In this document: positions 13,841 through 32,965 of the stretch, piece after piece
How positions within the stretch are numbered: the stretch's first letter is position 1
Layout of the letters: every line of letters begins with the position of its first letter
IMG/VR virus record: IMGVR_UViG_3300027659_000037
Location: 1-60,661 of that record
DNA: 60,661 nt
Source: a virus
Reading direction: 5' to 3' (one strand)
The notes under the pieces: generated by a model
Seen by the model: only the letters and a program-made list of their open reading frames with translations
Databases searched by the model: none
Told to the model about the DNA's origin: nothing
Made by a program: the position numbers and the translations under genes

Positions 13841-13932
13841 GAGGTAAGGAATCCTACCCGGGGGGTCATTTCGTTTTTCCAAGTTGCTACGGGGTGTGTA
13901 ATTCGCATGGGGGGGTGGTGCTACAGGAGTAA

Positions 13933-14020
13933 GTACGTCTTGGCGGGTACGTCTCGGCGGGTACGTCTCGGCGGGTACGTCTCGGTGGGTACGTCTCGGT
14001 GGGTACGTCTCGGTGGGTAC
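13933..14020. repeat. 14-bp tandem repeat, six copies plus a partial
   Basis: Units starting at 13933, 13947, 13961, 13975, 13989 and 14003 read GTACGTCTCGGYGG, with one T change in the first. The last three carry GGTGG and the earlier ones GGCGG. A truncated seventh starts at 14017. The spacing is an exact 14 bases. Iteron-like; it may bind an origin or regulatory protein. Confidence 0.9.
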
Positions 14021-14295: not shown

Positions 14296-14306
14296 CTTAT
14301 TTAGCG

Positions 14307-14324
14307 TTCCGTCTCCTGCCGGAA
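14307..14324 (+). promoter_or_regulatory. TTCCGTC stem-loop, copy 1
   Basis: TTCCGTC, loop TCCT, GCCGGAA: 7-bp stem with one mismatch. First of six related stem-loops ahead of early genes; this one is 94 bases before the gene at 14418. Confidence 0.6.
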
Positions 14325-14360
14325 TGATTGACTATTCACTCTACATCATCTATTATTCTT

Positions 14361-14388
14361 TTATCGGAAGCAATTCGGCAACCGATAA
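14361..14388 (+). promoter_or_regulatory. Leader stem-loop of first paralog gene
   Basis: TTATCGG (14361-14367) pairs with CCGATAA (14382-14388). It follows a TATTATTC element and precedes CCTTTATAAGGAAATG. The second paralog's leader has a stem at the same place made of different bases, which argues for conserved pairing. Confidence 0.6.
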
Positions 14389-14417
14389 CCCTGTAAACCC
14401 TTTATAAGGAAATGAAA

Positions 14418-15086
14418 ATGGCTAAAGCAAAAACCCTGACTGCCCAAGCAGTCGCAGTGCAGTTCACTTCAGTGACAGACATCGCAGTGCAACATGGTCA
14501 AGCAGAGAATAAGATCTCTGCCTGTGCTGAGTACGCACTGGACATAATCAAAGGCTTTCCAGTACTGAAAGAAGTCTCAGAAGAAAACGTCAAAGCCCTG
14601 CGAGACGGTTATTCTTTGCATCATCGCAGTGTCTATAAGCCTAAGACATATGCAGTCATCAGTGGACAATACTTTGAGGCAACCCCAGATCATCTGGCAA
14701 ACGACAAAGTCGAAAAGATCAACGCAACGATCGACTGGGCAATGGTCTGGACACCCAATGAGATGGCGACTGAATTCAAAGATCGTCCAGAATTAAAAAA
14801 GATCGTCGAAAAAGTACGCAAAGCACATTTAACTTATGTGTCTGACACACTGGGTAAATTGGTACGCAAAGCAGAGGCGATTTTAAAAGATCGTGCGGGT
14901 ATCAAAGCAGAACGTAGAATAGTTCTGTTTGTGAATACAGTCGGAGACTTCTTTGCAGCACAGGAAAAGTCAGTGAAAGTTAAGCAGACTCGAAGTGGCG
15001 ATGCTACTGCTAACCCTGAGAAGTTTAAGGAGGCAGTCAAAGCCTTTTGGTTAGCATATGGTCAGAGACCTACTCAGTCTAAGTAA
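14418..15086 (+). CDS. Early protein, first paralog of a tandem pair; function unknown
   Basis: 222 aa from ATG 14418 (MAKAKTLTAQ); an in-frame ATG at 14412 is only one base from the AAGGA site, so the second is preferred. Mostly helical with an IDTV/VRKAHLTYVSD... centre and a basic KSVKVKQTRSGDATANPEKFKEAVKAFW C-terminus. Clearly homologous to the next gene: shared HG(Q/K)AEN, GFP(V/I)LK, LRDGYSL, YAVI(S/N)GQYF, VEKVRKAHLTY and RGDATANPEK. No enzyme motif. Own leader and terminator. High charge suggests nucleic acid or protein binding. Confidence 0.85.
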   Translation: MAKAKTLTAQAVAVQFTSVTDIAVQHGQAENKISACAEYALDIIKGFPVLKEVSEENVKALRDGYSLHHRSVYKPKTYAVISGQYFEATPDHLANDKVEKINATIDWAMVWTPNEMATEFKDRPELKKIVEKVRKAHLTYVSDTLGKLVRKAEAILKDRAGIKAERRIVLFVNTVGDFFAAQEKSVKVKQTRSGDATANPEKFKEAVKAFWLAYGQRPTQSK

Positions 15087-15095
15087 TTAGACTCT

Positions 15096-15135
15096 AAGCC
15101 CAGACCGGATTAATTTCCGGTCTGGGCTTTTTTTT
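15096..15135 (+). terminator. Rho-independent terminator after first paralog
   Basis: Perfect 14-bp stem (15096-15109 with 15116-15129), 6-base loop, then a run of T to 15135. A strong terminator ending the first early unit. Confidence 0.95.
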
Positions 15136-15142
15136 GTCCCGC

Positions 15143-15175
15143 TATTTGAGACCAGTTATGTAAGGGCGCGCGTGA
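15143..15175 (+). repeat. Post-terminator repeat TTGAGACCAGTTATGTAAGG, copy 1
   Basis: TTGAGACCAGTTATGTAAGG followed by GCGCGCG directly after the terminator. A near-identical copy follows the second paralog's terminator (16024-16056) and a diverged one follows the terminator at 27484. A promoter or regulatory role is suggested by placement between a terminator and the next gene. Confidence 0.6.
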
Positions 15176-15215
15176 GATCGAGCGAGGATGTCGAGCGCGA
15201 AACTATTAAATAGTG

Positions 15216-15233
15216 TTCCGTCACCTGACGGAT
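15216..15233 (+). promoter_or_regulatory. TTCCGTC stem-loop, copy 2
   Basis: TTCCGTC, loop ACCT, GACGGAT: 6 perfect pairs. It stands 86 bases before the second paralog gene, at the same place as copy 1 in its unit. Confidence 0.65.
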
Positions 15234-15270
15234 TGATTGACATTCTATATGGTCTCAGCTATTATTCTTT

Positions 15271-15290
15271 TACCTGATGCAAATCAGGTA
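15271..15290 (+). promoter_or_regulatory. Leader stem-loop of second paralog gene
   Basis: TACCTGAT, GCAA loop, ATCAGGTA: a perfect 8-bp stem after the same TATTATTCTTTTA element as in the first leader and before CCCTTAAAAGGAAATG. Pairing is retained with different bases relative to 14361-14388. Confidence 0.7.
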
Positions 15291-15318
15291 TTTCAATCAA
15301 CCCTTAAAAGGAAATGTA

Positions 15319-15972
15319 ATGTCAAATCGTAAAACCCCGATAGCTCAAGCTATCAACCCCGTGGCTTTTGTCTCAATTACTGACATTGGTTTACAGCATG
15401 GCAAGGCTGAGAATCGTATTGATTCATGCGCTGAATCAGCCCTTGACCATATCGTAGGTTTCCCCATTCTCAAGGATGTCTCAACTGAGGATATCAAATC
15501 CTTGCGTGACGGCTATTCATTGGCTCACAAGGAAATCTACAAGGCTGTCACCTATGCTGTTATCAATGGACAGTATTTTCCCGCCACGCCAGAACACCTT
15601 GAAAACAAGAAGGTTGAGAAAATCGAAGCCACGATAGATTACGTCATGAGTTTCACGGCTAATCAAATGGGTACGGATTTCAAGGACAACCCCAACCTCA
15701 AGGCTGTCGTTGAGAAGGTTCGCAAGGCTCACCTCACTTATATATCTGATAAGTTAGGCAAGTTGGTGGACAAGGCTGAGAAGATTCTTAGAATACGCTC
15801 AGGTATCAAGGTTGAGCGCCAAGTGGTGTTATTCATTGATACCATGAAGAAGATATTTGAAGCACAAGGGAAATCTGTCAAGGTGAAACAATCTCAGCGT
15901 GGTGACGCCACGGCTAATCCTGAGAAATACAAAAAGGCTGTTGAAGCTTTTTGGCAAGCGTACAAAGCGTAA
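15319..15972 (+). CDS. Early protein, second paralog of a tandem pair; function unknown
   Basis: 217 aa from ATG 15319 (MSNRKTPIAQ), with AAAAGGAAA just upstream; this start matches that of the first paralog better than the in-frame ATG at 15277. It shares most of its length with the gene at 14418, including the HGKAEN, LRDGYSL, YAVINGQYF and VEKVRKAHLTY segments and the basic C-terminus. Codon choice differs at many shared positions, so the duplication is not recent. Function unknown. Confidence 0.85.
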   Translation: MSNRKTPIAQAINPVAFVSITDIGLQHGKAENRIDSCAESALDHIVGFPILKDVSTEDIKSLRDGYSLAHKEIYKAVTYAVINGQYFPATPEHLENKKVEKIEATIDYVMSFTANQMGTDFKDNPNLKAVVEKVRKAHLTYISDKLGKLVDKAEKILRIRSGIKVERQVVLFIDTMKKIFEAQGKSVKVKQSQRGDATANPEKYKKAVEAFWQAYKA

Positions 15973-15983
15973 CGCTTGAGCCG

Positions 15984-16015
15984 AACCCCGAGCCGCAAGG
16001 TTCGGGGTTTTTTTT
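15984..16015 (+). terminator. Rho-independent terminator after second paralog
   Basis: AACCCCGA (15984-15991) pairs with TCGGGGTT (16002-16009), followed by eight T. Lies 12 bases past the stop codon. Confidence 0.92.
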
Positions 16016-16023
16016 CGCCCTTA

Positions 16024-16056
16024 ATTGAGACCAGTTATGTAAGGGCGCGCGCGTGA
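16024..16056 (+). repeat. Post-terminator repeat TTGAGACCAGTTATGTAAGG, copy 2
   Basis: Same 20-base core and GCGCGCG tail as at 15143-15175, again directly after a terminator. It is followed about 65 bases later by stem-loop copy 3, as in the second unit, but no paralog gene follows. Confidence 0.65.
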
Positions 16057-16090
16057 TTAGCGTGTGCGTGGTTTATGAGCTTAATTAGCG

Positions 16091-16108
16091 TTCCGTCTGG
16101 TGACGGAA
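16091..16108 (+). promoter_or_regulatory. TTCCGTC stem-loop, copy 3
   Basis: TTCCGTC, loop TGGT, GACGGAA: perfect 7-bp stem. There is no gene within several hundred bases downstream, so this looks like the leader of a lost or empty third unit. Confidence 0.6.
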
Positions 16109-16115
16109 TGGGATC

Positions 16116-16218
16116 ATCGCCTACCGTTCTCAGAACTCACACTACCAAAAACACGTCTACATCATCTACCGTTCTCAGAACTGATGATCTACATCGCCTA
16201 CCGTTCTCAGAACTGATA
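16116..16218. promoter_or_regulatory. Three GTTCTCAGAAC palindromic operator-like sites
   Basis: The 11-base near-palindrome GTTCTCAGAAC occurs at 16126-16136, 16171-16181 and 16203-16213, each within a longer CTACCGTTCTCAGAACT repeat. Spacings are 45 and 32 bases. This 5-1-5 symmetry is typical of dimeric DNA-binding protein sites. The half-site AGAAC also occurs in the TAGAACA array next to it. Confidence 0.75.
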
Positions 16219-16266
16219 GATTTGAACGCACAAAGCATACTAACTTTACATGTTCCAAAAAAAGAG

Positions 16267-16622
16267 TAGAACAAATGGGGTCGAGTAGAACAGAAAAACC
16301 CTCGTAAGTCCTTGTCAGCATTGAAGAAAAAGTTTTTGTTCTAATGTTCTACGATTTTGAGCATAGGGGTCAGGATTTTGCAGTTTTTCTCAATCGCAAG
16401 ACTTACCTGCTGAGTGCAAAGTTGCAGTCGAAAAAATCGAAATAAAACCGTATCCCCCCTAAAAACCGTAGAACATTAGAACAAGTTTCTTTTCTTTCTT
16501 TCTTTTTTATAAAATAATAATACTTCTCCTTACAAAAAACACAGAAAACCTACTTCAAGTAATACTCGTTTTTGTTCTAACTTTACATAGAAAAATAGAA
16601 CAAGTGGTAGAACATTAGAACA
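16267..16622. repeat. TAGAACA iteron array
   Basis: Ten TAGAACA heptamers. Forward starts: 16267, 16286, 16469, 16477, 16596, 16608 and 16616. Reverse: 16337, 16345 and 16573. Three form the 15-base doublet TAGAACATTAGAACA (16337-16351 inverted, 16469-16483, 16608-16622), about 130-140 bases apart. An AT/pyrimidine-rich stretch lies between the second and third. The pattern suits an iteron-type origin or an extended operator array. Confidence 0.75.
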
Positions 16623-16653
16623 AACGCCTTGAATAACTATCTTACCGTATCAC

Positions 16654-16682
16654 TTGTGTTAAATGTATAGTTGTGGTATACT
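16654..16682 (+). promoter_or_regulatory. Sigma-70-type promoter with palindrome over -10, copy 1
   Basis: TTGTGT (16654-16659), 17-base spacer, TATACT (16677-16682). An inverted repeat GTATA-N7-TATAC (16665-16681) overlaps the -10 box and could be a repressor site. The surrounding 43 bases recur with two mismatches at 19547-19589. Drives the gene cluster from 16790. Confidence 0.75.
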
Positions 16683-16739
16683 TATATCTGAGTCGAGGAT
16701 GAAACGCTTGCAGGTCGCAAGCACCACGGCTTGTTTAGT

Positions 16740-16759
16740 GTTCCGTCATCAGACGGAAC
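16740..16759 (+). promoter_or_regulatory. TTCCGTC stem-loop, copy 4
   Basis: GTTCCGTC, loop ATCA, GACGGAAC: perfect 8-bp stem, the longest of the family, in the 5' leader between promoter and the gene at 16790 (30 bases before its start). Confidence 0.75.
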
Positions 16760-16789
16760 GGATCAATGTCAGACCTTTAGGAGAGAGTC

Positions 16790-17083
16790 ATGAAAATGTT
16801 TTTTGTTGCCCCGATGCTTCCTGCATCCATTGCACGCCCCATCATTCGTTTGCACAAGCCCCGCGTTGCTTACAACCATGCGCAGACAGATCTCACCGAG
16901 ACCATGCGCCGTGATGCGTTGCGCACCGATACGTACTTCAATCAGAATTTAGAGTTCTTGGACAGAGACTACGATTTCGACGAGTTCCAAGACATTGACA
17001 ACGAGCATGAGGGCTTGACCATAACCGAGCCAATGTCCGAGGTCGAGTTGTTCCAGTTCTGCACTGGCTACGACACCATCTAA
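16790..17083 (+). CDS. Early protein, function unknown
   Basis: 97 aa, ATG 16790 with AGGAGAG upstream. N-terminus is hydrophobic/basic (MKMFFVAPMLPASIARPIIRLHKPR), the C-terminal half strongly acidic (FLDRDYDFDEFQDIDNEHEG). First gene after the regulated promoter at 16654. Acidic small early phage proteins often inhibit or redirect host proteins, but nothing here shows that. No family recognised. Confidence 0.7.
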   Translation: MKMFFVAPMLPASIARPIIRLHKPRVAYNHAQTDLTETMRRDALRTDTYFNQNLEFLDRDYDFDEFQDIDNEHEGLTITEPMSEVELFQFCTGYDTI

Positions 17084-17094
17084 TTTATTCAGCG

Positions 17095-17112
17095 TTCCGT
17101 CTACGGACGGAA
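17095..17112 (+). promoter_or_regulatory. TTCCGTC stem-loop, copy 5
   Basis: TTCCGTC, loop TACG, GACGGAA: perfect 7-bp stem between two early genes, 26 bases before ATG 17139. This copy is inside the operon, not at a promoter, which favours an RNA role. Confidence 0.75.
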
Positions 17113-17138
17113 TCAATTCCCTCATCAAGGAGAATCAC

Positions 17139-17504
17139 ATGGGACGTTTCAAAGATATTGCCATCGGCATGGTGGAAGACCACGAACAAGTACAGGGTGA
17201 CTTGTTCATCGACGATGAACTGCGCACGTTGATGCAGAACTTCAAGCCAACAGCAGAGGAACTTCAAGCTGAACTAGATGAACTGCAAGCTCATGCGATG
17301 AGCTTACCAAGTCTTTGTGTTCAGCCTGAGGTGAAAGTTTATTTGCTGATGAAGAACGGTTTCCCTCAGCGCTCATACACGGACAGGGCGTTGGCGTTCT
17401 ACGAGTGCTGGATTTGCACCGAGGGAGACATGCACGCCGAGACACCCGACGACTACTACGTTGTCGAGATCATGCACGACACATCCACTTACACAGGGGA
17501 ATGA
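17139..17504 (+). CDS. Early protein, function unknown
   Basis: 121 aa, ATG 17139 with AAGGAG. Acidic and largely helical in the first half (VEDHEQVQGDLFIDDELRTLMQNFKPTAEELQAELDELQAH), then a V-rich segment with LLMKNGFPQRSYTDRALAFYECWIC and an acidic end. No catalytic motif recognised. Next gene follows after one base. Confidence 0.68.
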   Translation: MGRFKDIAIGMVEDHEQVQGDLFIDDELRTLMQNFKPTAEELQAELDELQAHAMSLPSLCVQPEVKVYLLMKNGFPQRSYTDRALAFYECWICTEGDMHAETPDDYYVVEIMHDTSTYTGE

Positions 17505-17505
17505 C

Positions 17506-17718
17506 ATGAAAGTAAGACAGATACGCCGAAGGGCGAAGACCAAGTATGTAACGGAGGCGGGCTTTGCTTTCTTGCGTGGATGCTTTGCCAAGCGATGCCG
17601 TACCTATGAGGCGGGATGTCCCACTTGTGATGAGTGGCGCTTTCGTGACGAGCATGGGCGGTTCGTCTACAACTGGGATGAGTTGCGTAAGTACATGGAC
17701 ACAACGGAGGAAGTATGA
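17506..17718 (+). CDS. Small basic early protein
   Basis: 70 aa from ATG 17506 (MKVRQIRRRAKTKY), after a GGGGAATG context that acts as ribosome site. Basic N-terminus, then CFAKRCRTYEAGCPTCDEW with four Cys that could hold a metal. Ends overlapping the next ATG (ATGA). Function unknown. Confidence 0.65.
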   Translation: MKVRQIRRRAKTKYVTEAGFAFLRGCFAKRCRTYEAGCPTCDEWRFRDEHGRFVYNWDELRKYMDTTEEV

Positions 17719-17963
17719 ATGATTTCTTTTGGAACTACCGCATCGTCAACACAAAGACTGCTAACGGAGGGGAGGATTGGTACTGCATCCAAGAGGTGAT
17801 ATACAACGAGGACGGCAAACCCGAGAGTTATGGCGAGCCTTGCCTTGGGTCAGAGGATATGGAATCCTTTGGCGATGTGTGGCACATGATGCAGGAAGCG
17901 ATGACCTTGCCCCCATTGCAGGAAGAAGATTTTGTCCAACCAACACAGGAGTATTTCGCATGA
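17715..17963 (+). CDS. Small acidic early protein
   Basis: 82 aa. Overlaps its neighbours at both ends (ATGA junctions), indicating translational coupling. FFWNYRIVNTKTANGGEDWYCIQEVIYNEDGKPESYGE looks like a small beta-rich domain. The C-terminus is acidic with a Pro-rich tail. Unknown function. Confidence 0.65.
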   Translation: MNDFFWNYRIVNTKTANGGEDWYCIQEVIYNEDGKPESYGEPCLGSEDMESFGDVWHMMQEAMTLPPLQEEDFVQPTQEYFA

Positions 17964-18118
17964 ATCCAATCTATTACATATGCACTGCCGTCATATCTTG
18001 CGGGTTCATCGTGGTGGGGTGGGGTGGCGAGGGCTATCTGCACTACCTGTGCCTGATCTTGGGCGGCGTGGGGTTCGGTGCAACTGTCACCGATGCGTTG
18101 AATTACACAGGAGAGTGA
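17960..18118 (+). CDS. Small membrane protein
   Basis: 52 aa, ATG 17960 overlapping the previous stop. Two hydrophobic stretches, residues 5-21 (YYICTAVISCGFIVVGW) and 27-44 (YLHYLCLILGGVGFGATV), with short polar ends: likely two membrane spans. Function unknown; one of four tiny membrane proteins in the early block. Confidence 0.6.
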   Translation: MNPIYYICTAVISCGFIVVGWGGEGYLHYLCLILGGVGFGATVTDALNYTGE

Positions 18119-18121
18119 GTA

Positions 18122-18301
18122 ATGAATATCACAGTCGAGATCAGGGAGGTCTATGGTCAGTCCAAGATCTACCCAGTGTGTGACAAGGCGCAGACGTTTG
18201 CGCATATCGCAGGGACAACCACGCTACTGCCCCGAGACATCCAACGCATACAGATGTTGGGGTTCGAGGTCTTGGTAAAACAGAAGGAGTTGAAGTTATG
18301 A
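18122..18301 (+). CDS. Small early protein
   Basis: 59 aa: starts MNITVEIREVYGQSKIYPVC at ATG 18122 and stops at TGA 18299-18301, overlapping the next ATG. Beta-alpha-beta character by eye. Included because the junctions on both sides match the tight operon packing. Function unknown. Confidence 0.6.
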   Translation: MNITVEIREVYGQSKIYPVCDKAQTFAHIAGTTTLLPRDIQRIQMLGFEVLVKQKELKL

Positions 18302-18516
18302 GCAATGACATTCACGAACCAGAGTGCAGGCAATGCGGTGATGAGTATTCCGTCAACAGGTGGAAGCTTGGTTACAAGTTCTGCTTACCATGCGGCGAGC
18401 GTATCGCACAGAAGATCGTGCGCACTGTCGTGCCCATGCACAAGTCCAACTACGTGATGCTGACTGACATGGCTGACTTGAAAGGCATCAACAACAAGGG
18501 AGGGTTTCACAGATGA
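18298..18516 (+). CDS. Small zinc-ribbon-like protein
   Basis: 72 aa. Cys10-x2-Cys13 and Cys29-x2-Cys32 form a zinc-ribbon pattern (ECRQCG ... FCLPCGE), followed by a helix and a basic segment. Likely binds zinc; may bind nucleic acid or a host protein. ATGA overlap with the preceding gene. Confidence 0.65.
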   Translation: MSNDIHEPECRQCGDEYSVNRWKLGYKFCLPCGERIAQKIVRTVVPMHKSNYVMLTDMADLKGINNKGGFHR

Positions 18517-18764
18517 ACCACACACTAACAGATGAGTATCTATCCATTGCAATGACGGAATCAACGATGCGGAGGGCACACATGATTAGCACAGCGAATG
18601 GGGAAACCCTTGAGTCAGAAGCAGAGGAGGCGTTCTATGCCTACCTGACCGAGTTGCAACAGCAAGTAAAGATGCTTGTCGCTGAGGACAGGAAAATCAG
18701 TGCGACCTTGCGTGATGTGTTTCTTGCGGGATACCGCGCGTCAGAAGAAAGGAGATTCAGATGA
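18513..18764 (+). CDS. Small helical early protein
   Basis: 83 aa. Helical, charged (EAEEAFYAYLTELQQQVKMLVAEDRKISATLRDVFLAGYRASEERRF). Overlaps both neighbours by 4 bases. No motif recognised. Confidence 0.62.
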   Translation: MNHTLTDEYLSIAMTESTMRRAHMISTANGETLESEAEEAFYAYLTELQQQVKMLVAEDRKISATLRDVFLAGYRASEERRFR

Positions 18765-19087
18765 TGTACGGAGATGACATGAGCCACATGGTGTCGGTGT
18801 TCGTGCCGGTGGGCAGGGACAAGCCATGCCTACCATACGATGAATTCATAACTGAGGGAGGGTTTCATCCAAGCTCGTTCGCTGAAAGTTCTGAGTATGG
18901 TCGCCACTTCTATACCAAGTACGAGTTCCCGAACGGCAAGAAGGTGAGCGTGATCTGTGGGGCAATGTTCTATTCACGGACAGATGCCCCATACGAGGTG
19001 ATGTTTGAGGACGAGGACGAACCGTATGGGTATCAGACCGACGAGGAGTTGATGATTCTTTTAGCCAAAGCAATAGGAGATGCGTAA
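18761..19087 (+). CDS. Early protein, function unknown
   Basis: 108 aa. MMYGDDMSHMVSVFVPVGRDKP start, then Gly/Phe/Tyr-rich beta character, GKKVSVICGAMFYSR and an acidic C-terminus (MFEDEDEPYGYQTDEELM). The next gene starts at its last base. No family recognised. Confidence 0.62.
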   Translation: MMYGDDMSHMVSVFVPVGRDKPCLPYDEFITEGGFHPSSFAESSEYGRHFYTKYEFPNGKKVSVICGAMFYSRTDAPYEVMFEDEDEPYGYQTDEELMILLAKAIGDA

Positions 19088-19506
19088 TGGGATATAGATC
19101 AGAGGTGGCATACACCATCAGATTCACAAGCGACGACGAGCGAGCCAAGCAATCGTTTTATACATTCATAGCCGAAGCTAAGGCTAAGGCTGCCACAGCC
19201 CCATGTTTCACTGAGGAACAAAAGAACTGGAATGGAGGTAATGGGTTCATCGTGGACGAGGGACGATTCCGTATTAATTTCTCTGCTGACGATGTGAAGT
19301 GGTATCCCGACTACGACGATGTGAAGTGCCATGAAGCGTTGATAGAGCTTGCCGACGAGTGGGCGAACGACGAGGACAACCATTCCGAGATCGCCTATGT
19401 ATTCGTGCGTATCGGTGAGGAGAACGACGACATTGAGGAGAGGTTAGGCGGAGACTACGACTTTGAATGGGTGCAGGTCAATCGCTCGATCAGTCGAGAC
19501 TGGTAA
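19087..19506 (+). CDS. Conserved early protein of MGYRSEVAY type
   Basis: 139 aa. N-terminus MGYRSEVAYTIRFTSDDE recurs in many phages I can recall, usually without a known function. A central FRINFSADDVKWYPDYDDVKCHEALIELADEW segment suggests an alpha/beta domain; the tail is acidic. Last gene before the second copy of the regulated promoter. Confidence 0.75.
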   Translation: MGYRSEVAYTIRFTSDDERAKQSFYTFIAEAKAKAATAPCFTEEQKNWNGGNGFIVDEGRFRINFSADDVKWYPDYDDVKCHEALIELADEWANDEDNHSEIAYVFVRIGEENDDIEERLGGDYDFEWVQVNRSISRDW

Positions 19507-19547
19507 ATAACTGGCATCTTCTTACGCAACTACTTTGCGTGAGGGTC

Positions 19548-19576
19548 TTGTGTTATATGTATAGTTGTGGTATACT
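19548..19576 (+). promoter_or_regulatory. Sigma-70-type promoter with palindrome over -10, copy 2
   Basis: TTGTGT (19548-19553), 17-base spacer, TATACT (19571-19576), with GTATA-N7-TATAC overlapping the -10. It is 41/43 identical to the copy at 16653. Drives the DUF3150-like/MoxR/VWA module. A 6-bp inverted repeat (ACGCAA / TTGCGT) lies just upstream at 19526-19542. Confidence 0.75.
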
Positions 19577-19621
19577 TATAACTGAGTCGGGAATGAAAAT
19601 CATCGACGACTCGAAACAGCG

Positions 19622-19639
19622 TTCCGTCACCAGACGGAA
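19622..19639 (+). promoter_or_regulatory. TTCCGTC stem-loop, copy 6
   Basis: TTCCGTC, loop ACCA, GACGGAA: perfect 7-bp stem, 27 bases before ATG 19667 and about 40 bases after the promoter, in the 5' leader. Confidence 0.75.
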
Positions 19640-19666
19640 TGAATCATCAATCGAAAAGGAGTTCTC

Positions 19667-20622: not shown

Positions 20623-21741
20623 ATGAGCAAAGTTTCTTTCGTCAATACCGTGACCATCAACGAACTACGGAAAATAATTCCGCTAATAGCTTCAGATCTG
20701 ACAGTGGTCGTACAGTCAGAACCTGGGTGTGGCAAGACCTCGCTGTTATCCATGATGGCGGTTGACAACGGTGACAAGTGGCGCAGTCCCAAGGATGGCA
20801 CAAACATCGAGGGTGACAAGTACGACTACATCTACGTTGACTGTCCGGTCAAGGACATGAGCGACATAGGTATGACTATCCCCAACCATGCGACCAAGCA
20901 GTTGGAGTACTACGTCGCTGAGTTGTTCAATATGAAAAGCAACAAGCCCAAGGTCATCTTGCTCGACGAGTTGATGAAGTCTCCCAAGCTGATGCAGATC
21001 ATCTATACCCGCCTGATGTTGGAGAGAATGTTAGGTGATGATCCGTTGCCAGACGGAAGCCAAATCATTGCGACGTCGAACAATGCAAGCGATGGCGTGG
21101 GCGATGCGATGTTGGCTCATGCGGCAAACCGTGTGTGTATTGTGCGCATGGCTAAGCCCACAGCTGATGAGTGGTTGCAGTGGGCAACAGCCAATGGAAT
21201 CTCTCGTGTTGTTCGTGCGTTCGTGGCGATGTTCCCGAGGGTGATGGCATCGTATACCGAGGGCGATATGCAGAAAGATAACCCTTACATCTTCAAGCCA
21301 AGCTCAGGTGCGTTGTCGTTCTGTTCCCCTCGTTCGTTGGCGAAGTGCGATGTGATCGTGAAGCATCGTGATGCGATAGGCGAGAACGCAACTATGGTTG
21401 CATTGGCAGGAACGATTGGTGCGTCAGCGGCAGGGGACATGGCGGCATTCATGTCGTTGGAGAAATCATTGACAGATGTCAAGGACATCGTGAAGAACCC
21501 GTTGGGTGTGACCATGCCGAGAGACATATCAGCCCAGTTGATGATTATGTTTCAAGCAGTAGATACATTGGCGACGCAGGATGAGTTGACAGCGTTCATG
21601 GAGTTCGTCGGTCGTATCGACTCAAGCGAAGTGCAAGCAGTGTTCTTCACCATGATGATGCGTAGTCCCAAAGCAGTGCGTCTTGCTCGCAACAATGCAA
21701 AGATCGCTGAGTGGGCTAAGAACAACCACGAATTGTTTTGA
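20623..21741 (+). CDS. MoxR-like AAA+ ATPase
   Basis: 372 aa. Walker A SEPGCGKTS (residues 32-40), Walker B VILLDE (111-116), sensor-1-like IIATSNN about residue 145. MoxR ATPases act as chaperones with VWA-domain partners to assemble or activate target complexes. The VWA gene lies about 460 bases downstream, so a functional pair is likely. The phage target is unknown. Confidence 0.88.
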   Translation: MSKVSFVNTVTINELRKIIPLIASDLTVVVQSEPGCGKTSLLSMMAVDNGDKWRSPKDGTNIEGDKYDYIYVDCPVKDMSDIGMTIPNHATKQLEYYVAELFNMKSNKPKVILLDELMKSPKLMQIIYTRLMLERMLGDDPLPDGSQIIATSNNASDGVGDAMLAHAANRVCIVRMAKPTADEWLQWATANGISRVVRAFVAMFPRVMASYTEGDMQKDNPYIFKPSSGALSFCSPRSLAKCDVIVKHRDAIGENATMVALAGTIGASAAGDMAAFMSLEKSLTDVKDIVKNPLGVTMPRDISAQLMIMFQAVDTLATQDELTAFMEFVGRIDSSEVQAVFFTMMMRSPKAVRLARNNAKIAEWAKNNHELF

Positions 21742-21753
21742 TAGGGGGGCAAT

Positions 21754-21930
21754 ATGAAACGATGGAAAGGAACACTTGTCGTGTCATACACACAAGATTT
21801 GGAAGTCGAAGCCGAGACGCAAGCCGAGGCTGAAGAATTGATGCGAGAAGCATTTGACCCAACACGATGCCATAACACCGCCGAGTGCCAAGCATACGAT
21901 GTTGAAGAAATAACAATGAGGGTTGAATGA
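21754..21930 (+). CDS. Small acidic protein
   Basis: 58 aa, ATG 21754 after GGGGGG-type site, stop overlapping the next ATG. MKRWKGTLVVSYTQDLEVEAETQAEAEELM is a beta hairpin followed by an acidic helix, then CHNTAEC. Resembles small DpnD/PcfM-like phage proteins by eye only. Function unknown. Confidence 0.6.
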   Translation: MKRWKGTLVVSYTQDLEVEAETQAEAEELMREAFDPTRCHNTAECQAYDVEEITMRVE

Positions 21931-22124
21931 TGATAACTTTTACTGAGTTGGAGTTGGTGTTGCTGATTGCGTTTGGTGTGATGACGTTCTATTTTTTCAG
22001 ACTCAAGGCTGAGTTGTATATGCACAGGCGTGTAGTAGCAGAGATGTTCATGCGTATTGCCAAGGGCAATGTGAAGGTTACCCAGACTGATGATGGCTTT
22101 GACTTTGAGGACATCAAGTCATGA
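21927..22124 (+). CDS. Small single-span membrane protein
   Basis: 65 aa. One hydrophobic stretch (residues about 7-25, LELVLLIAFGVMTFYFF), then a charged cytosolic-type tail. Lies between the MoxR and VWA genes with ATGA overlaps at both ends. Confidence 0.6.
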   Translation: MMITFTELELVLLIAFGVMTFYFFRLKAELYMHRRVVAEMFMRIAKGNVKVTQTDDGFDFEDIKS

Positions 22125-22207
22125 GTGAAACAAAGTGGTTGACCGTCGTCTATGTGTTGGCGATGGTTGTTCTTGTGTTAGATATATTTTATTGGAGAGC
22201 GATATGA
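22121..22207 (+). CDS. Very small membrane peptide
   Basis: 28 aa: MSETKWLTVVYVLAMVVLVL followed by DIFYWRAI. ATG 22121 overlaps the preceding stop and its TGA overlaps the VWA start, which supports translation. A single membrane span. Confidence 0.5.
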   Translation: MSETKWLTVVYVLAMVVLVLDIFYWRAI

Positions 22208-23484
22208 GCAAGCAAGAAACGCGTGTTAAGAAGGCGCACATTGCGCTGATGAAACACCCAGAGACAGCGTTGTACTCAGGCGTGATGTTGATGGGGTACA
22301 GCAAGGTCGTGGATGAAGGATGTCCTACGGCATACACCGATGGTATCAACAAGGTATACGGTCGCAAGTTCTTGGAGGGTGTCGATACCGAGCCGAAGGT
22401 GCGTGGCTTGATACTGCATGAGAACCTGCATGTGGCGTTGAAGCAATTACCAAGAGGTAAGGATATGTTTGACGAGAACCAAAAGATGGCGAACATTGCC
22501 GCTGACTTTGTGGTGAACGGCATCATTGAGAACATCAAAGGCACAGTCAATGGGTCGAGTGAGCGTATCGTGGACTTGCCTGATGGTGGTGTGTTTGACC
22601 CCATGTTCGACAACTGGTCAATGCGTGAGGTATACAACTACCTCAAGAAGAACTGCAAAGGCGGTGGCAAGGGCAACGGTCAAGGTGGCAAGGGAGGTGG
22701 TCAAGGTAACGTTCCGTCAGGGGGCGGAAACGAAGATGGCGATGGAGACACTATCACCATCAATGGCAAGACCTATGATCTTTCTAACTCAGACCAACAT
22801 GATCTCGGCAACCTGAAAGATCTTACGCATGAGCAGGTCAAAGAGATCAACGATTCAATTGATCGTGCGTTGCGTGAGGGCGGGATGTTAGCAGGTCGTA
22901 TGGGTGCGAAAGTACCCCGAGCTATCTCTGACTTACTCGAACCCAAGATTGATTGGCGTGATGCGTTGAGAGACTTTGTAGCGAGTGCCATCAAGGGCAA
23001 GGATGAGTTCACATGGCGCAAGCTGAACAAGCGTCACATGGCTAATGACATCTACTTACCAAGCATGGAGAACGAGACGATCGGCGAGGTGGTCGTCGCC
23101 ATTGACACATCAGGGTCGATCGGCAGTGCGCAGATTACCGAGTTTGCGACAGAACTGGTCTCTATTTGCGATCTTTGTTCACCTGACAAAGTGCGTGTTC
23201 TGTGGTGGGACACCGATGTGCATGGTGAGCAAGTGTTCGAGGGTGACTACAAAGGCATTGCTCAGATGCTTAAGCCAATGGGTGGGGGTGGTACTCATGT
23301 GTCATGCGTCAACGATTACATCAACGAGCAAAAGATCAATGCCGAGTGCGTGATCGTGTTCACTGATGGCTACGTCGAGAATGACATCACGTGGAACATT
23401 CATAGTCCAACCCTGTGGATGGTGACACAGTGCAAATCGTTCGAGCCGCCTGTTGGCAAGTTGGTGAAGTTCGGTGAAGACTGA
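22204..23484 (+). CDS. VWA-domain protein with HExxH metallopeptidase-like N-terminus
   Basis: 426 aa. HENLH at residues 72-76 fits the zinc motif HExxH in a DUF2201-like N-terminal domain. A Gly/Asn/Lys-rich linker lies about residues 150-185. The VWA domain has the MIDAS DTSGS at 301-305 and FTDGY at 386-390. MoxR plus VWA pairs remodel or load metal/cofactor proteins, but the phage target is unknown. The earlier TTCCGTC-type sequence at 22707-22727 lies in the linker codons. Confidence 0.85.
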   Translation: MSKQETRVKKAHIALMKHPETALYSGVMLMGYSKVVDEGCPTAYTDGINKVYGRKFLEGVDTEPKVRGLILHENLHVALKQLPRGKDMFDENQKMANIAADFVVNGIIENIKGTVNGSSERIVDLPDGGVFDPMFDNWSMREVYNYLKKNCKGGGKGNGQGGKGGGQGNVPSGGGNEDGDGDTITINGKTYDLSNSDQHDLGNLKDLTHEQVKEINDSIDRALREGGMLAGRMGAKVPRAISDLLEPKIDWRDALRDFVASAIKGKDEFTWRKLNKRHMANDIYLPSMENETIGEVVVAIDTSGSIGSAQITEFATELVSICDLCSPDKVRVLWWDTDVHGEQVFEGDYKGIAQMLKPMGGGGTHVSCVNDYINEQKINAECVIVFTDGYVENDITWNIHSPTLWMVTQCKSFEPPVGKLVKFGED

Positions 23485-23821: not shown

Positions 23822-24788
23822 TTACAAGCGTTTAGAGCAGATCACGAAGATAGAGAAGCCGTTTCGTGGTACGACCAATCGGTTTCCAATCGGGAGTCGT
23901 AGGCGTAATCTTCAGAATTTCTACGTCAGGGAAGAGAATGGCGTAAAAGTATTTGACATAACGTGTGGGACTCGTTGGAACACAGTTGAGCTTACTAAGG
24001 AAGAATACGATGCGGGAATCGCAAGGTGCGAGAAGAACCTACATGAGTACACATACGACGCGAGTGCGGGTACTAAGTACGTCAGGTATGAGCATCCTAT
24101 CCATGTCTTAGGTACTGTGTACCCCGAGTACTTTCAATTCACTGCCGAGGGCAACTACCCCTATGGGCAAGGCGAGAAGAAGTTCCTTAGCGATGCCACT
24201 AGCGGATGGTTTAAGAACGACTCACGCAGGGGTGGGATGGTGTGGTCGATTGGGCGCAGTGATGCTTGGCGCGTGATGCCGATCTTCAAGAACATGAGAG
24301 TAACAACCGATCAGGCTATGCGCTCGCTTGATGAGTATTCCGTCATCGGGCGGAAAGTCAATCGCAAAGTGGGTAAAGAGGTTCTTGCAGGATACGAACA
24401 CTTCTACAAGGTAAGCGAGACCATGTGCAAGGCGATGGACAGAGAAGCGTTCTTGCGTACAGCTAAGGAAGTTCTTGAAGAACATAGGGACGATACCGAC
24501 TTTGAAGTAGCTGACGAATTGCGAGATCAAGCACCACTTGATGCAATGATTCTTTATGCGTCAGCGTTGGGTGTCGGAAGGATTCAAGATCAGATCGTCC
24601 ACCCTAACTGGCATCGGTCTGAACCGCATGAAATCTTTGAGAATCTTAAGCGACACATGAACAACAGAATCTACAAAGAACATCCCGAAGTGTTCAAGCT
24701 TGTGCGGTATGGGACGGATGAGAAGTATCCGCCGAGCGTGTGGGGGTACGAAGTCGAGGTCAATGGCGAGATTGTTCAGCAGTATTAA
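23808..24788 (+). CDS. Early protein, function unknown
   Basis: 326 aa from ATG 23808 (MRGFDYKRLEQITK), preceded by AAAGGAG. An in-frame GTG at 23781 lacks such a site. Mixed alpha/beta with many aromatic residues (GTRWNTVELTKEEYDAGI, GGMVWSIGRSDAWRVMPIF). No known motif. An imperfect TTCCGTC/GGCGGAA pair lies inside the gene near 24339. Confidence 0.65.
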   Translation: MRGFDYKRLEQITKIEKPFRGTTNRFPIGSRRRNLQNFYVREENGVKVFDITCGTRWNTVELTKEEYDAGIARCEKNLHEYTYDASAGTKYVRYEHPIHVLGTVYPEYFQFTAEGNYPYGQGEKKFLSDATSGWFKNDSRRGGMVWSIGRSDAWRVMPIFKNMRVTTDQAMRSLDEYSVIGRKVNRKVGKEVLAGYEHFYKVSETMCKAMDREAFLRTAKEVLEEHRDDTDFEVADELRDQAPLDAMILYASALGVGRIQDQIVHPNWHRSEPHEIFENLKRHMNNRIYKEHPEVFKLVRYGTDEKYPPSVWGYEVEVNGEIVQQY

Positions 24789-26745: not shown

Positions 26746-26949
26746 ATGGATGAACAAGACAAAAGTAATTTGCGTGATCTACACGCAGGATTTGCAATGA
26801 TAGGTTTAATCATGAAAGGAGAAGCACCGCACGACATACCAATGAAGGCATATCTGTATGCCGATGAAATGCAAGAAGCCCGAGACCTGCATGGGGCAGG
26901 AATCGTATCAGTGAAACGCCGAACCAAGAAGGAGAAGGCAGATGAATAA
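26746..26949 (+). CDS. Small conserved early protein
   Basis: 67 aa, AAGGAG before ATG 26746. LRDLHAGFAMIGLIMKGEAPHDIPMKAYLYADEM and a Lys-rich tail; a type I recall from other phages without function. Overlaps the next gene by 8 bases. Confidence 0.65.
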   Translation: MDEQDKSNLRDLHAGFAMIGLIMKGEAPHDIPMKAYLYADEMQEARDLHGAGIVSVKRRTKKEKADE

Positions 26950-27478
26950 ATCAGCGAAAGTAAGGATGCTGTTGCGTAGGAATCCAAACACCAAAGCAGG
27001 GGCAGTCGTCGAGACACTTGACTGCACCATGCAACAAGCCTATGTCATGTTAAACACACAGAGGAAGGCAATGGGGATTTACAAAAGCGCAGACGGCACA
27101 TTTAAAAATCCGCCCTCAAACGGAACACTAAATAAAAATTCAATCCTTGCACAGGGTGTATCTTTAGGACGCGCTATTCAAAGAGGAATGGACGACGGGT
27201 CGCTACAGAAACGTGCAGACGAAAACTTTGTACCCTTTACTGGTGAGATCACGATGGAGGAGCCGCCCACAACCAATCCTGACCCAGTGAATCATCCCTA
27301 TCATTACAAGGTGGGTGGCATCGAGACTATCGACTTCATCGAGGGAAAGAATCTTGGCTATAACCTTGGCAATGCGGTGAAGTACATCAGCAGAGCAGAC
27401 CACAAGGGCAACAGACTGCAAGACTTACAGAAGGCTCAGTGGTATCTCAACAGAGAGATCAACAAAGCACAGGCTTGA
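26942..27478 (+). CDS. DUF3310 protein with N-terminal helix-turn-helix-like domain
   Basis: 178 aa. Residues about 1-50 (AKVRMLLRRNPNTKAGAVVETLDCTMQQAYVMLN) resemble a winged helix-turn-helix unit. Residues 115-178 carry the DUF3310 signature VNHPYHYKVGGIETIDFIE...NLGNAVKYISRADHKG...DLQKAQWYL, also present in T7 gp1.7 nucleotide kinase. May help nucleotide supply or regulate expression. Terminator follows. Confidence 0.8.
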   Translation: MNKSAKVRMLLRRNPNTKAGAVVETLDCTMQQAYVMLNTQRKAMGIYKSADGTFKNPPSNGTLNKNSILAQGVSLGRAIQRGMDDGSLQKRADENFVPFTGEITMEEPPTTNPDPVNHPYHYKVGGIETIDFIEGKNLGYNLGNAVKYISRADHKGNRLQDLQKAQWYLNREINKAQA

Positions 27479-27526: not shown

Positions 27527-27550
27527 TATTTGATGCCAGTTATTTAAGGA
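27527..27550 (+). repeat. Post-terminator repeat, diverged copy 3
   Basis: TTTGATGCCAGTTATTTAAGG, similar to the repeats at 15146 and 16025 and, like them, placed directly after a terminator and before the next gene. AAGGAG at its end doubles as the ribosome site for 27559. Confidence 0.5.
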
Positions 27551-27558
27551 GAGCAACG

Positions 27559-28023
27559 ATGCTGACAGGATTAGATATTTTGCTCGCACGAATGAAGACC
27601 CACCCCGAGGAGTTCCTACATACAAGCAAAGCTGTTCCCTATGAGGGAGAATTGTTTGGCGGGAAGTGGTCAGACCTACTTGACTACGTTTGGCGTGTTG
27701 CAACTGAGGAAGAACGAAAGGCTCTCGATGATGCCCGCAGGGAGTTCTACCGTGATGACTTTAACGAGCGAGTCATGAAGCGACTTGCAGGTGAAGAAGT
27801 GAAACAAGTAGAACAACCAAGTCCGTTTATCGTCAAACAACAAAGTGGTGGTTTTGCTGTTAGTGCTGGTGGTACTGGCGGTAGTGGTAGTGCTAAGTCA
27901 ATGTTGAGTCAACAGGGGGCGCAACAAGCAAGGGCAAGCTTAGCGCAGACAGGTGCGACTATTAGCACTGACTCAAGTTTTTGGAATGGCGTTATTACAT
28001 CAGGCAAGGGGCAGCTGTGGTGA
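27559..28023 (+). CDS. Early protein, function unknown
   Basis: 154 aa from ATG 27559 (MLTGLDILLARMKTHPEEF), with AAGGAG upstream. Folded helical N-terminal part of about 90 residues, then a Gly/Ser/Ala-rich flexible region and a short polar tail. No family recognised. First gene after the terminator at 27484. Confidence 0.62.
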   Translation: MLTGLDILLARMKTHPEEFLHTSKAVPYEGELFGGKWSDLLDYVWRVATEEERKALDDARREFYRDDFNERVMKRLAGEEVKQVEQPSPFIVKQQSGGFAVSAGGTGGSGSAKSMLSQQGAQQARASLAQTGATISTDSSFWNGVITSGKGQLW

Positions 28024-32112: not shown

Positions 32113-32507
32113 ACGAAACATGGAAACATGAAATAGACAAGGTCTATATGTCTGACGTAATTTGCTTGGAAAAAGAAACTGTTGAGAAAATAGAAGATGG
32201 ACACAGGATGGGCGCTATCTTTAGCAGAAACCCTAGTGAAGGTTCAGTGGTGTTTCATTCCGAGAGTGTTGTTAAAGATTTGAAGTGGGAAGTGACGCAA
32301 AAGGATACGGAAATATACAGACTCAAAGCAGAGCAAGATGAGATTTATGGGTTGCTTGGGTCAGCACATCTTGAACTGCGACAGAACCTTGAGTACGGAT
32401 TCAACCGCAACACAATCAAGTCAACGCTTATCAGCATAGGTCGATACGCACCCAAGCTGAAAGCAAAGATGGATGAGTTGCAAGCCAAGATGGGGGACAA
32501 GCTATGA
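32109..32507 (+). CDS. Coiled-coil early protein
   Basis: 132 aa, basic-acidic helical protein with heptads (KDLKWEVTQKDTEIYRLKAEQDEIYGLL). No motif. Overlaps both neighbours. Confidence 0.6.
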   Translation: MNETWKHEIDKVYMSDVICLEKETVEKIEDGHRMGAIFSRNPSEGSVVFHSESVVKDLKWEVTQKDTEIYRLKAEQDEIYGLLGSAHLELRQNLEYGFNRNTIKSTLISIGRYAPKLKAKMDELQAKMGDKL

Positions 32508-32965
32508 CTGAGTTCAACGACACCGAGCGTATGAGTAGCGTCAAGCAAGAAGCGGTGAGGGCGGCAGTAAACATAAAAGAAGAGTTGACCAAGCTCATTG
32601 CCGACAGCTATGACCAAGGGGTTAAAGACGCATTGGAAGTAGCTCGCAATGCAGCCATCGAAGAAGTGGCACAGCACATTGAAAAGATGCGAGTCTTTGG
32701 CAATGACACGATCAGTAGTTTTGCAATCTATATAAGGGAAATGAAGAAATGCCCTGAGCATGAGCAATCAATTTTGAATTTGGAGTTGAGCGCCCGCGCA
32801 ACAAATGTTTTGAGAGCAGAAAATATTCAAACGATTGGGCAACTGATTGGGCGTTTAAAAGACTGTGACTACTATCTTTCTAAACTGTGTAACTGCGGCA
32901 AAGTCACTGAACACGAGATCAAAAACGCTCTTAAAGAACGTGGACTTTCATGGGGACAGACATGA
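32504..32965 (+). CDS. Protein with RNA polymerase alpha C-terminal-domain-like fold
   Basis: 153 aa. N-terminal helical part to about residue 85; residues 90-153 follow the alpha-CTD pattern: LNLELSARATNVLRAENI, IGQLIGR, then LSKLCNCGKVTEHEI and KNALKERGLSWG. In bacterial RpoA this domain binds UP-element DNA and transcription factors. A phage copy could interfere with or redirect host RNA polymerase, or act as a DNA-binding helix-hairpin-helix unit. Homology is by eye. Confidence 0.8.
   Translation: MTEFNDTERMSSVKQEAVRAAVNIKEELTKLIADSYDQGVKDALEVARNAAIEEVAQHIEKMRVFGNDTISSFAIYIREMKKCPEHEQSILNLELSARATNVLRAENIQTIGQLIGRLKDCDYYLSKLCNCGKVTEHEIKNALKERGLSWGQT

Follow-up and report, generated by a model that had tools for sequence, protein, structure and literature searches.

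The stretch of viral DNA analysed here, all 60,661 nucleotides (nt) of IMG/VR record IMGVR_UViG_3300027659_000037 (hereafter the window), encodes a terminase, portal and capsid proteins, DNA polymerase A, a SNF2-type helicase and a DUF927 primase/helicase-like protein, a set of structural and replication genes that identifies it as a tailed phage. Between positions 14,307 and 19,639, six stem-loops of the form TTCCGTC-N4-GACGGAA stand upstream of early genes or, in one case, of a noncoding region (Table 1). The initial annotation, made from the sequence, had reported six copies with conserved arms and differing four-base loops; copies and loops are as it listed them, except that copy 4 starts at 16741 and not 16740, and the arms are exact in copies 3 to 6 and carry one mismatch each in copy 1 (TTCCGTC TCCT GCCGGAA) and copy 2 (second arm GACGGAT). 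Allowing up to three mismatches, the pattern occurs 13 times in the window against an expectation of 1.94 ± 1.42, a number reached by none of 100 shuffled sequences, and the six copies have RNA folding z-scores of -2.1 to -4.4. The six stem-loops are genuine, far above chance and members of a wider family. The whole conserved unit spans about 37 nt and consists of YTTAATTAGYG, the first arm, four bases, the second arm and a T-rich or TGATTGA-like segment. Further loose matches at 18348, 20025, 21041, 22712 and 24338 all fall within reading frames, and of these the covariance model described below lists only those at 24327 (E 0.69) and 22701 (E 7.8).

The gene behind copy 6, encoding a protein of 309 amino acids (aa), has relatives in 191 viral stretches, from which 80 loci were kept, 76 of them with the upstream region. 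In about 71 of these 76 contigs the position of copy 6 is occupied by a hairpin, as read from the leaders together with model matches; the exceptions are about five divergent loci (L178, L181, L182, L188 and L189). The letters of the stem differ between relatives (CCCACG/CGTGGG, CCATG/CATGG, CCAGC/GCTGG, ATCTGTC/GACAGAT and TCACG/CGTGA among them) while pairing is retained: in a gapless alignment of 43 distinct sequences of this site, termed site F, at least one sequence has both partners changed for seven of the eight pairs, and 85.2% of cells are paired, giving a covariation score of 0.319 as compared with 0.168 after shuffling (0 of 500 shuffles) and at most 0.117 when the alignment is slid. 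A covariance model of the kind the initial annotation had proposed, trained on the orthologues of copy 6 only, recovers copies 1 to 5 of the window at 21.0–29.6 bits, as well as the equivalent sites in ten relative genomes and at many further loci. Both the presence of the hairpin in the leaders of related phages, where absence would have spoken against the family, and compensating change in its arms are thus borne out.

The recovered sites fall into classes according to what follows them, namely A (before a gene for a protein of about 220 aa, a class that many genomes hold more than once), C (before noncoding DNA), D/E and F, with the additional and apparently intercistronic classes G and H in some genomes. 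A genome holds about four to seven sites. Contexts picked by a 13-mer motif lying upstream, and not by pairing, likewise contain the stem, with at least four of five core pairs in 90 of 135 unique contexts; among unique arm pairs the mean pairing is 3.57, exceeding all of 2000 permutations (mean 3.29, largest 3.52).

The sites of one genome also have nearly the same stem. Across 161 sites from 46 distinct genomes, arm divergence is 0.115 when the sites of a single genome are compared with one another but 0.269 at the same site across genomes, and a homogeneity of this degree was reached in none of 2000 permutations. This permutation disregards phylogeny, for which the flanks of the same sites serve as an internal control, and these show no concerted change (0.433 within against 0.449 between genomes); the loops are intermediate (0.531 and 0.689). 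Arms that are homogenised, with loops less so and flanks not at all, are difficult to explain by plain gene conversion and are what a single factor reading the arms would lead one to expect. The pattern of letters therefore suggests that a common factor probably reads the stem. At sites G and H, stems are perfectly paired even where their letters depart from the genome's own type.

The element is directional, and at site F its spacing to the -10 box varies less than that to the start codon. The flanks (YTTAATTAGYG 5', T-rich 3') score better in the sense orientation in 129 of 133 non-F sites, a count favoured by selection, as the model that selected the sites includes the flanks. In 45 of 54 site-F leaders the arm lies 48–51 nt downstream of where the -10 box starts, whereas its distance to the ATG ranges from 2 to 36. 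In the window, copies 4, 5 and 6 end 31, 26 and 27 nt before an ATG, where about 27–30 bases had first been given, and copy 5, placed within an operon by the initial annotation, is intercistronic. The copy-6 unit has its own promoter, and in relatives the promoters of this class read TTGAC-17-TATACT with a palindrome of their own, TTGACnnnnnnGTCAA, over the -35 box, likely the operator of another regulator. In most leaders (mean z -1.8 over 45 of them) the segment between promoter and element is predicted to form a second, 5'-proximal hairpin (P1), a prediction drawn from folding z-scores only because the P1 alignment (A4) is out of structural register.

Table 1. Copies of the stem-loop element and neighbouring features, by position in the window
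Feature	Position	Strand	Remarks
Copy 1 (site A1), unit	14296..14332	+	stem-loop 14307-14324, one stem mismatch; 21.0 bits; precedes gene 14418
Copy 2 (site A2), unit	15205..15241	+	stem-loop 15216-15233; 24.7 bits
Copy 3 (site C), unit	16080..16116	+	stem-loop 16091-16108; 29.6 bits; precedes noncoding region
Copy 4 (site D), unit	16730..16766	+	stem-loop 16741-16758; 21.8 bits; ends 5' of ATG 16790
Copy 5 (site E), unit	17084..17120	+	stem-loop 17095-17112, intercistronic; 27.0 bits; ends 5' of ATG 17139
Copy 6 (site F), unit	19611..19647	+	stem-loop 19622-19639; 27.1 bits; ends 5' of ATG 19667
Seventh copy, antisense (site I)	27100..27136	-	26.5 bits; inside gene 26942-27478; kept in relatives
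Sigma70-like promoter TTGACT-17-TATTAT	14328..14356	+	directly 3' of copy 1
Sigma70-like promoter TTGACA-17-TATTAT	15237..15265	+	directly 3' of copy 2; 11/12 matches
Promoter of copy-4 unit, TTGTGT-17-TATACT	16654..16682	+	read from sequence; relatives compared
Promoter of copy-6 unit, TTGTGT-17-TATACT	19548..19576	+	read from sequence
P1, predicted 5'-proximal hairpin of copy-6 leader (GAGTCG...CGACTC)	19584..19612	+	from folding
Site-A gene, first paralogue, 222-aa family	14418..15086	+	no Pfam/PHROG match
Site-A gene, second paralogue	15319..15972	+	
Site-F gene, 309 aa	19667..20596	+	conserved in 191 viral stretches
Intrinsic terminator after first site-A gene	15096..15129	+	
Intrinsic terminator before site C	15983..16010	+	
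13-mer TGAGACCAGTTAT upstream of site A2	15147..15159	+	from sequence; family in relatives
13-mer TGAGACCAGTTAT upstream of site C	16026..16038	+	from sequence; family in relatives
Noncoding AT-rich region, GTTCTA/TAGAAC repeats	16117..16660	+	conserved in relatives

We tentatively favour an explanation in which the element belongs to the early transcripts and is read there in trans, probably during elongation. Each early transcription unit would carry one directional unit (the AT-rich YTTAATTAGYG, a stem of 5–9 bp and a free four-base loop) that would fold as a hairpin in the nascent or finished early RNA and be read by one common trans-acting factor, of phage or host origin, whose preference for stem letters would have shifted between phage lineages, with all sites of a genome changing in concert. 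The factor would most likely act on RNA polymerase during elongation or on newly made early RNA, and the effect may be processive antitermination or anti-pausing, in the manner of put or nut. Three observations favour elongation over translation: the element keeps a fixed distance from the promoter, site C precedes noncoding DNA, and conserved terminators stand directly before the A and C sites. The sequences themselves show the presence, orientation, covariation, concerted stems and position of the element; that the sites are transcribed, that RNA is the active form, that a factor exists and that elongation is affected are inferred from them. A further reading, possible but rather doubtful, is a rewritable stem code, in which the factor would recognise a short RNA stem by its sequence, largely ignoring the loop, and whole regulons would switch stem together as phages diverge, marking early transcripts by lineage.

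In favour of RNA as the acting form stand the covariation in oriented leaders, the adjacent P1 hairpin, the fully paired stems of G and H sites with letters unlike the genome's type, and one-sided departures from pairing at two core positions. Those at position 17 are U.G in 18 cases against 4 of the mirror C.A, and at position 18 G.A in 27 cases against 2 of the mirror T.C. Several observations weigh against the RNA reading, however. With all pairs summed, G.U departures number 41 and mirror C.A departures 37, and, as there is no excess, this summed wobble test is not counted as overall support for RNA pairing; position 13 leans toward C.A (22 against 5). Copies 1 and 2 adjoin the -35 boxes of near-consensus promoters, as does the site-A class in relatives (mean promoter score 8.19 against 4.03 for shuffled sequence), and site A pairs least well, with weak arms and position 18 paired in 48%. 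The loop or spacer is always 4 nt, which is typical of a dyad operator. Homologues of site I in several relatives are antisense, lie in coding sequence and carry their own genome's stem type. We hold with moderate confidence that RNA is the acting form. The view of the initial annotation that an RNA element is more likely than a promoter operator is the more probable one for copies 3 to 6; copies 1 and 2 fit it less readily.

Most of these observations feed the main rival, a stoperator-like DNA site, in which the arms would be half-sites bound by a dimeric phage regulator that makes no contact with the 4 bp between them. Bound protein would act on the promoter at site A, where the centre lies about 46–48 bp 5' of the predicted start, and would form a stoperator-like roadblock within transcribed regions at sites C to H. 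The promoters at site A, the noncoding site C, the antisense copy within a gene and the fixed four-base spacer keep this reading viable, and the free letters of the spacer and the genome-specific, concerted arms, as published for stoperator motifs (PMC6550527), agree with it. The strong one-sided flank and orientation bias are nevertheless difficult to reconcile with a dyad, as are the imbalance between mirror departures at positions 13, 17 and 18 and the predicted leader hairpin P1 next to the element; moreover, the copy-6 promoters of relatives already have their own palindrome, and no DNA-binding or repressor family was found among the proteins scanned. On this balance a DNA site is a serious possibility, but we consider it somewhat unlikely.

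The position of copies 4 to 6 before their start codons, the placement of sites E, G and H in intercistronic gaps just 5' of ribosome-binding sites and the 5'-proximal P1 hairpin could also be accounted for by a hairpin that serves the stability, processing or translation of the mRNA and has no dedicated sequence reader, or is served by a host RNase or ribosomal factor. This is unlikely, as structure alone does not need concerted stem letters, site C has no reading frame behind the hairpin and the spacing to the ATG is variable. Site C is present in each of the 11 genomes examined and the ATG spacing varies more than the -10 spacing, which makes a purely translational role, one of those raised in the initial annotation, improbable. 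Several hairpins in relatives such as L133 resemble terminators (e.g. CCCACGCATCCGTGGG TTTTGTTTCA), as would suit an attenuator in which hairpin and T-rich tail form a conditional terminator, but none of the six window hairpins scored as terminator-like and the window tails TGATTGAC, TGGGATCA and CGGATCAA have no T run, so that we regard attenuation as very unlikely.

Recognition of a stem with a free loop, at a place just after promoters, would also be expected of a mimic of a CRISPR repeat read by a host Cas6-type protein, as in solitary repeat units (PMC10651486). No CRISPR repeat family of Rfam matches the window or its relatives, even with the E threshold relaxed to 5 or 1, and the many copies per genome stand in ordinary leaders, which leaves this reading highly improbable. 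Even less credit can be given to an N4-like hairpin promoter serving a phage RNA polymerase, which the location of the hairpins shortly 5' of early genes would allow: no RNA polymerase family was found among the proteins scanned, the 2168-aa protein included, apart from one protein with an alpha C-terminal domain only, sigma70-like promoters lie upstream of the hairpin, and the gap between hairpin and ATG shrinks to a few nt in some relatives.

The element belongs among the phage-wide, repeated inverted-repeat control sites. In the boxB hairpin of lambda nut, a phage protein reads an early-leader hairpin largely through its loop, with boxA adjacent; the element here shares the position in early leaders, but its loop is free and its stem is kept. 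The closest published kind is the extended start-associated sequence (ESAS) of cluster K mycobacteriophages, an imperfect inverted repeat with arms of 17 bp and a spacer mostly of 4–13 bp, located just upstream of the 13-bp SAS GGGATAGGAGCCC at the start codon and, like the element here, of no known role (PMC3203893). Both precede a subset of non-structural genes, several times per genome and mostly in one orientation, with a repeat sequence specific to the subgroup and sites conserved gene by gene (PMC3203893). The present arms are shorter, however, at 5–9 bp, the spacer is 4 in all aligned copies, YTTAATTAGYG stands on the 5' side, one site precedes a noncoding region, and no SAS-like sequence was seen in the leaders.

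The put site of HK022 brings about antitermination as RNA alone, through the zinc-binding domain of the polymerase beta' subunit. It is about 70 nt long, is present twice per genome and needs no dedicated protein (PMC9378689). It resembles the copy-6 leader in having two stem-loops after an early sigma70 promoter (PMC9378689), here P1 and the hairpin downstream of a start site that we infer, but the stems here differ in concert between phages and number about four to seven per genome, some of them intercistronic. No Rfam family matched the window or its relatives, no put model having been run by name. Stoperators are asymmetric 13-bp DNA sites of the immunity repressor in temperate cluster A mycobacteriophages (PMC6550527); they too occur many times per genome, mostly in one orientation, in transcribed regions and with a genome-specific motif, whereas the site here is palindromic with covarying arms, though oriented by its flank, and among the proteins scanned, which cover part of the open reading frames, there was neither a repressor nor an integrase. 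Solitary CRISPR repeat units (Racr), whose sequence depends on the host, share a stem-loop just 3' of a phage promoter (PMC10651486) but differ from the element in their CRISPR repeat family, for which there was no match here, and in its many copies in coding leaders. As the element has some defining features of ESAS, put and stoperators and lacks others, it is filed under none of them, and literature searches found no description of it.

Candidates were also set aside. An exact-pattern scan of viral contigs gave 108 stretches, of which only 3300011115_000183 had the same context, most others being seemingly chance palindromes or the unrelated repeats of contig L031, which carries four copies of TTCCGTCAATTGACGGAA at 177, 2217, 3472 and 9356 with partly similar flanks. 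Matches before the homologue of the protein encoded at 27559 (site J) were dropped as terminator stems by their context, and, by judgement, we took the antisense matches inside the site-D gene to be a coincidence of coding and those 3' of the ATPase gene to be palindromic copies of site G.

The early proteins of about 220 aa form a family with two paralogues in the window (14418-15972) and up to several copies per genome in relatives. Neither Pfam nor PHROGs matched the genes behind the hairpins, the predicted structures of the site-A (pLDDT 89.8) and site-F (73.9) proteins matched no solved fold, and that of site A matched no viral model at E <= 0.001; for want of a fold match, neither protein can be named as the binder. 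Across Rfam, Pfam, PHROG and known folds, no match gives a name to the element or its factor. BLAST against deposited phages returned no DNA match of the region and no match of the 309-aa protein. Elsewhere in the window, the product of 32504-32965 contains the C-terminal domain of RNA polymerase alpha (PF03118, E 1e-10) and may be a transcription modulator, and at 20623-23484 an ATPase (phrog_1297) is followed by a DUF2201 metallopeptidase/VWA-like protein in an arrangement resembling a MoxR-VWA pair.

The 13-mer TGATRCCAGTTAT lies directly 3' of intrinsic terminators and 5' of the site A and C elements, and is usually followed by GCGCGCG; it is found in the window at 15147-15159, 16026-16038 and 27531-27543, the last just 5' of gene 27559, and in 238 contexts of the fetched loci from many relatives. 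The noncoding region at 16117-16660 contains TTGTTCTAATGTTCTAC-like repeats, inverted copies GTAGAACATTAGAACAA and, in addition, CTACCGTTCTCAGAACT, and from its letters looks like a replication origin. Tandem GGTACGTCTCGGYGG-like repeats occupy 13930-14020, separating the leftward structural genes from the rightward early region.

The element is a conserved regulatory site, absent from Rfam, of a large uncultured phage group whose marker gene occurs in 191 viral stretches, and dozens of genomes supply natural covariation data for it. The concerted change of the stem across a regulon amounts to a natural experiment in which a regulator and all its sites shift specificity, and the many stem types ease swap tests. 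If the DNA reading is true, stoperator-like control would extend to a phage group in which neither repressor nor integrase has been found so far; if the RNA reading is true, the element would be a rare case in which a short RNA stem is recognised by its sequence while the loop is free to vary.

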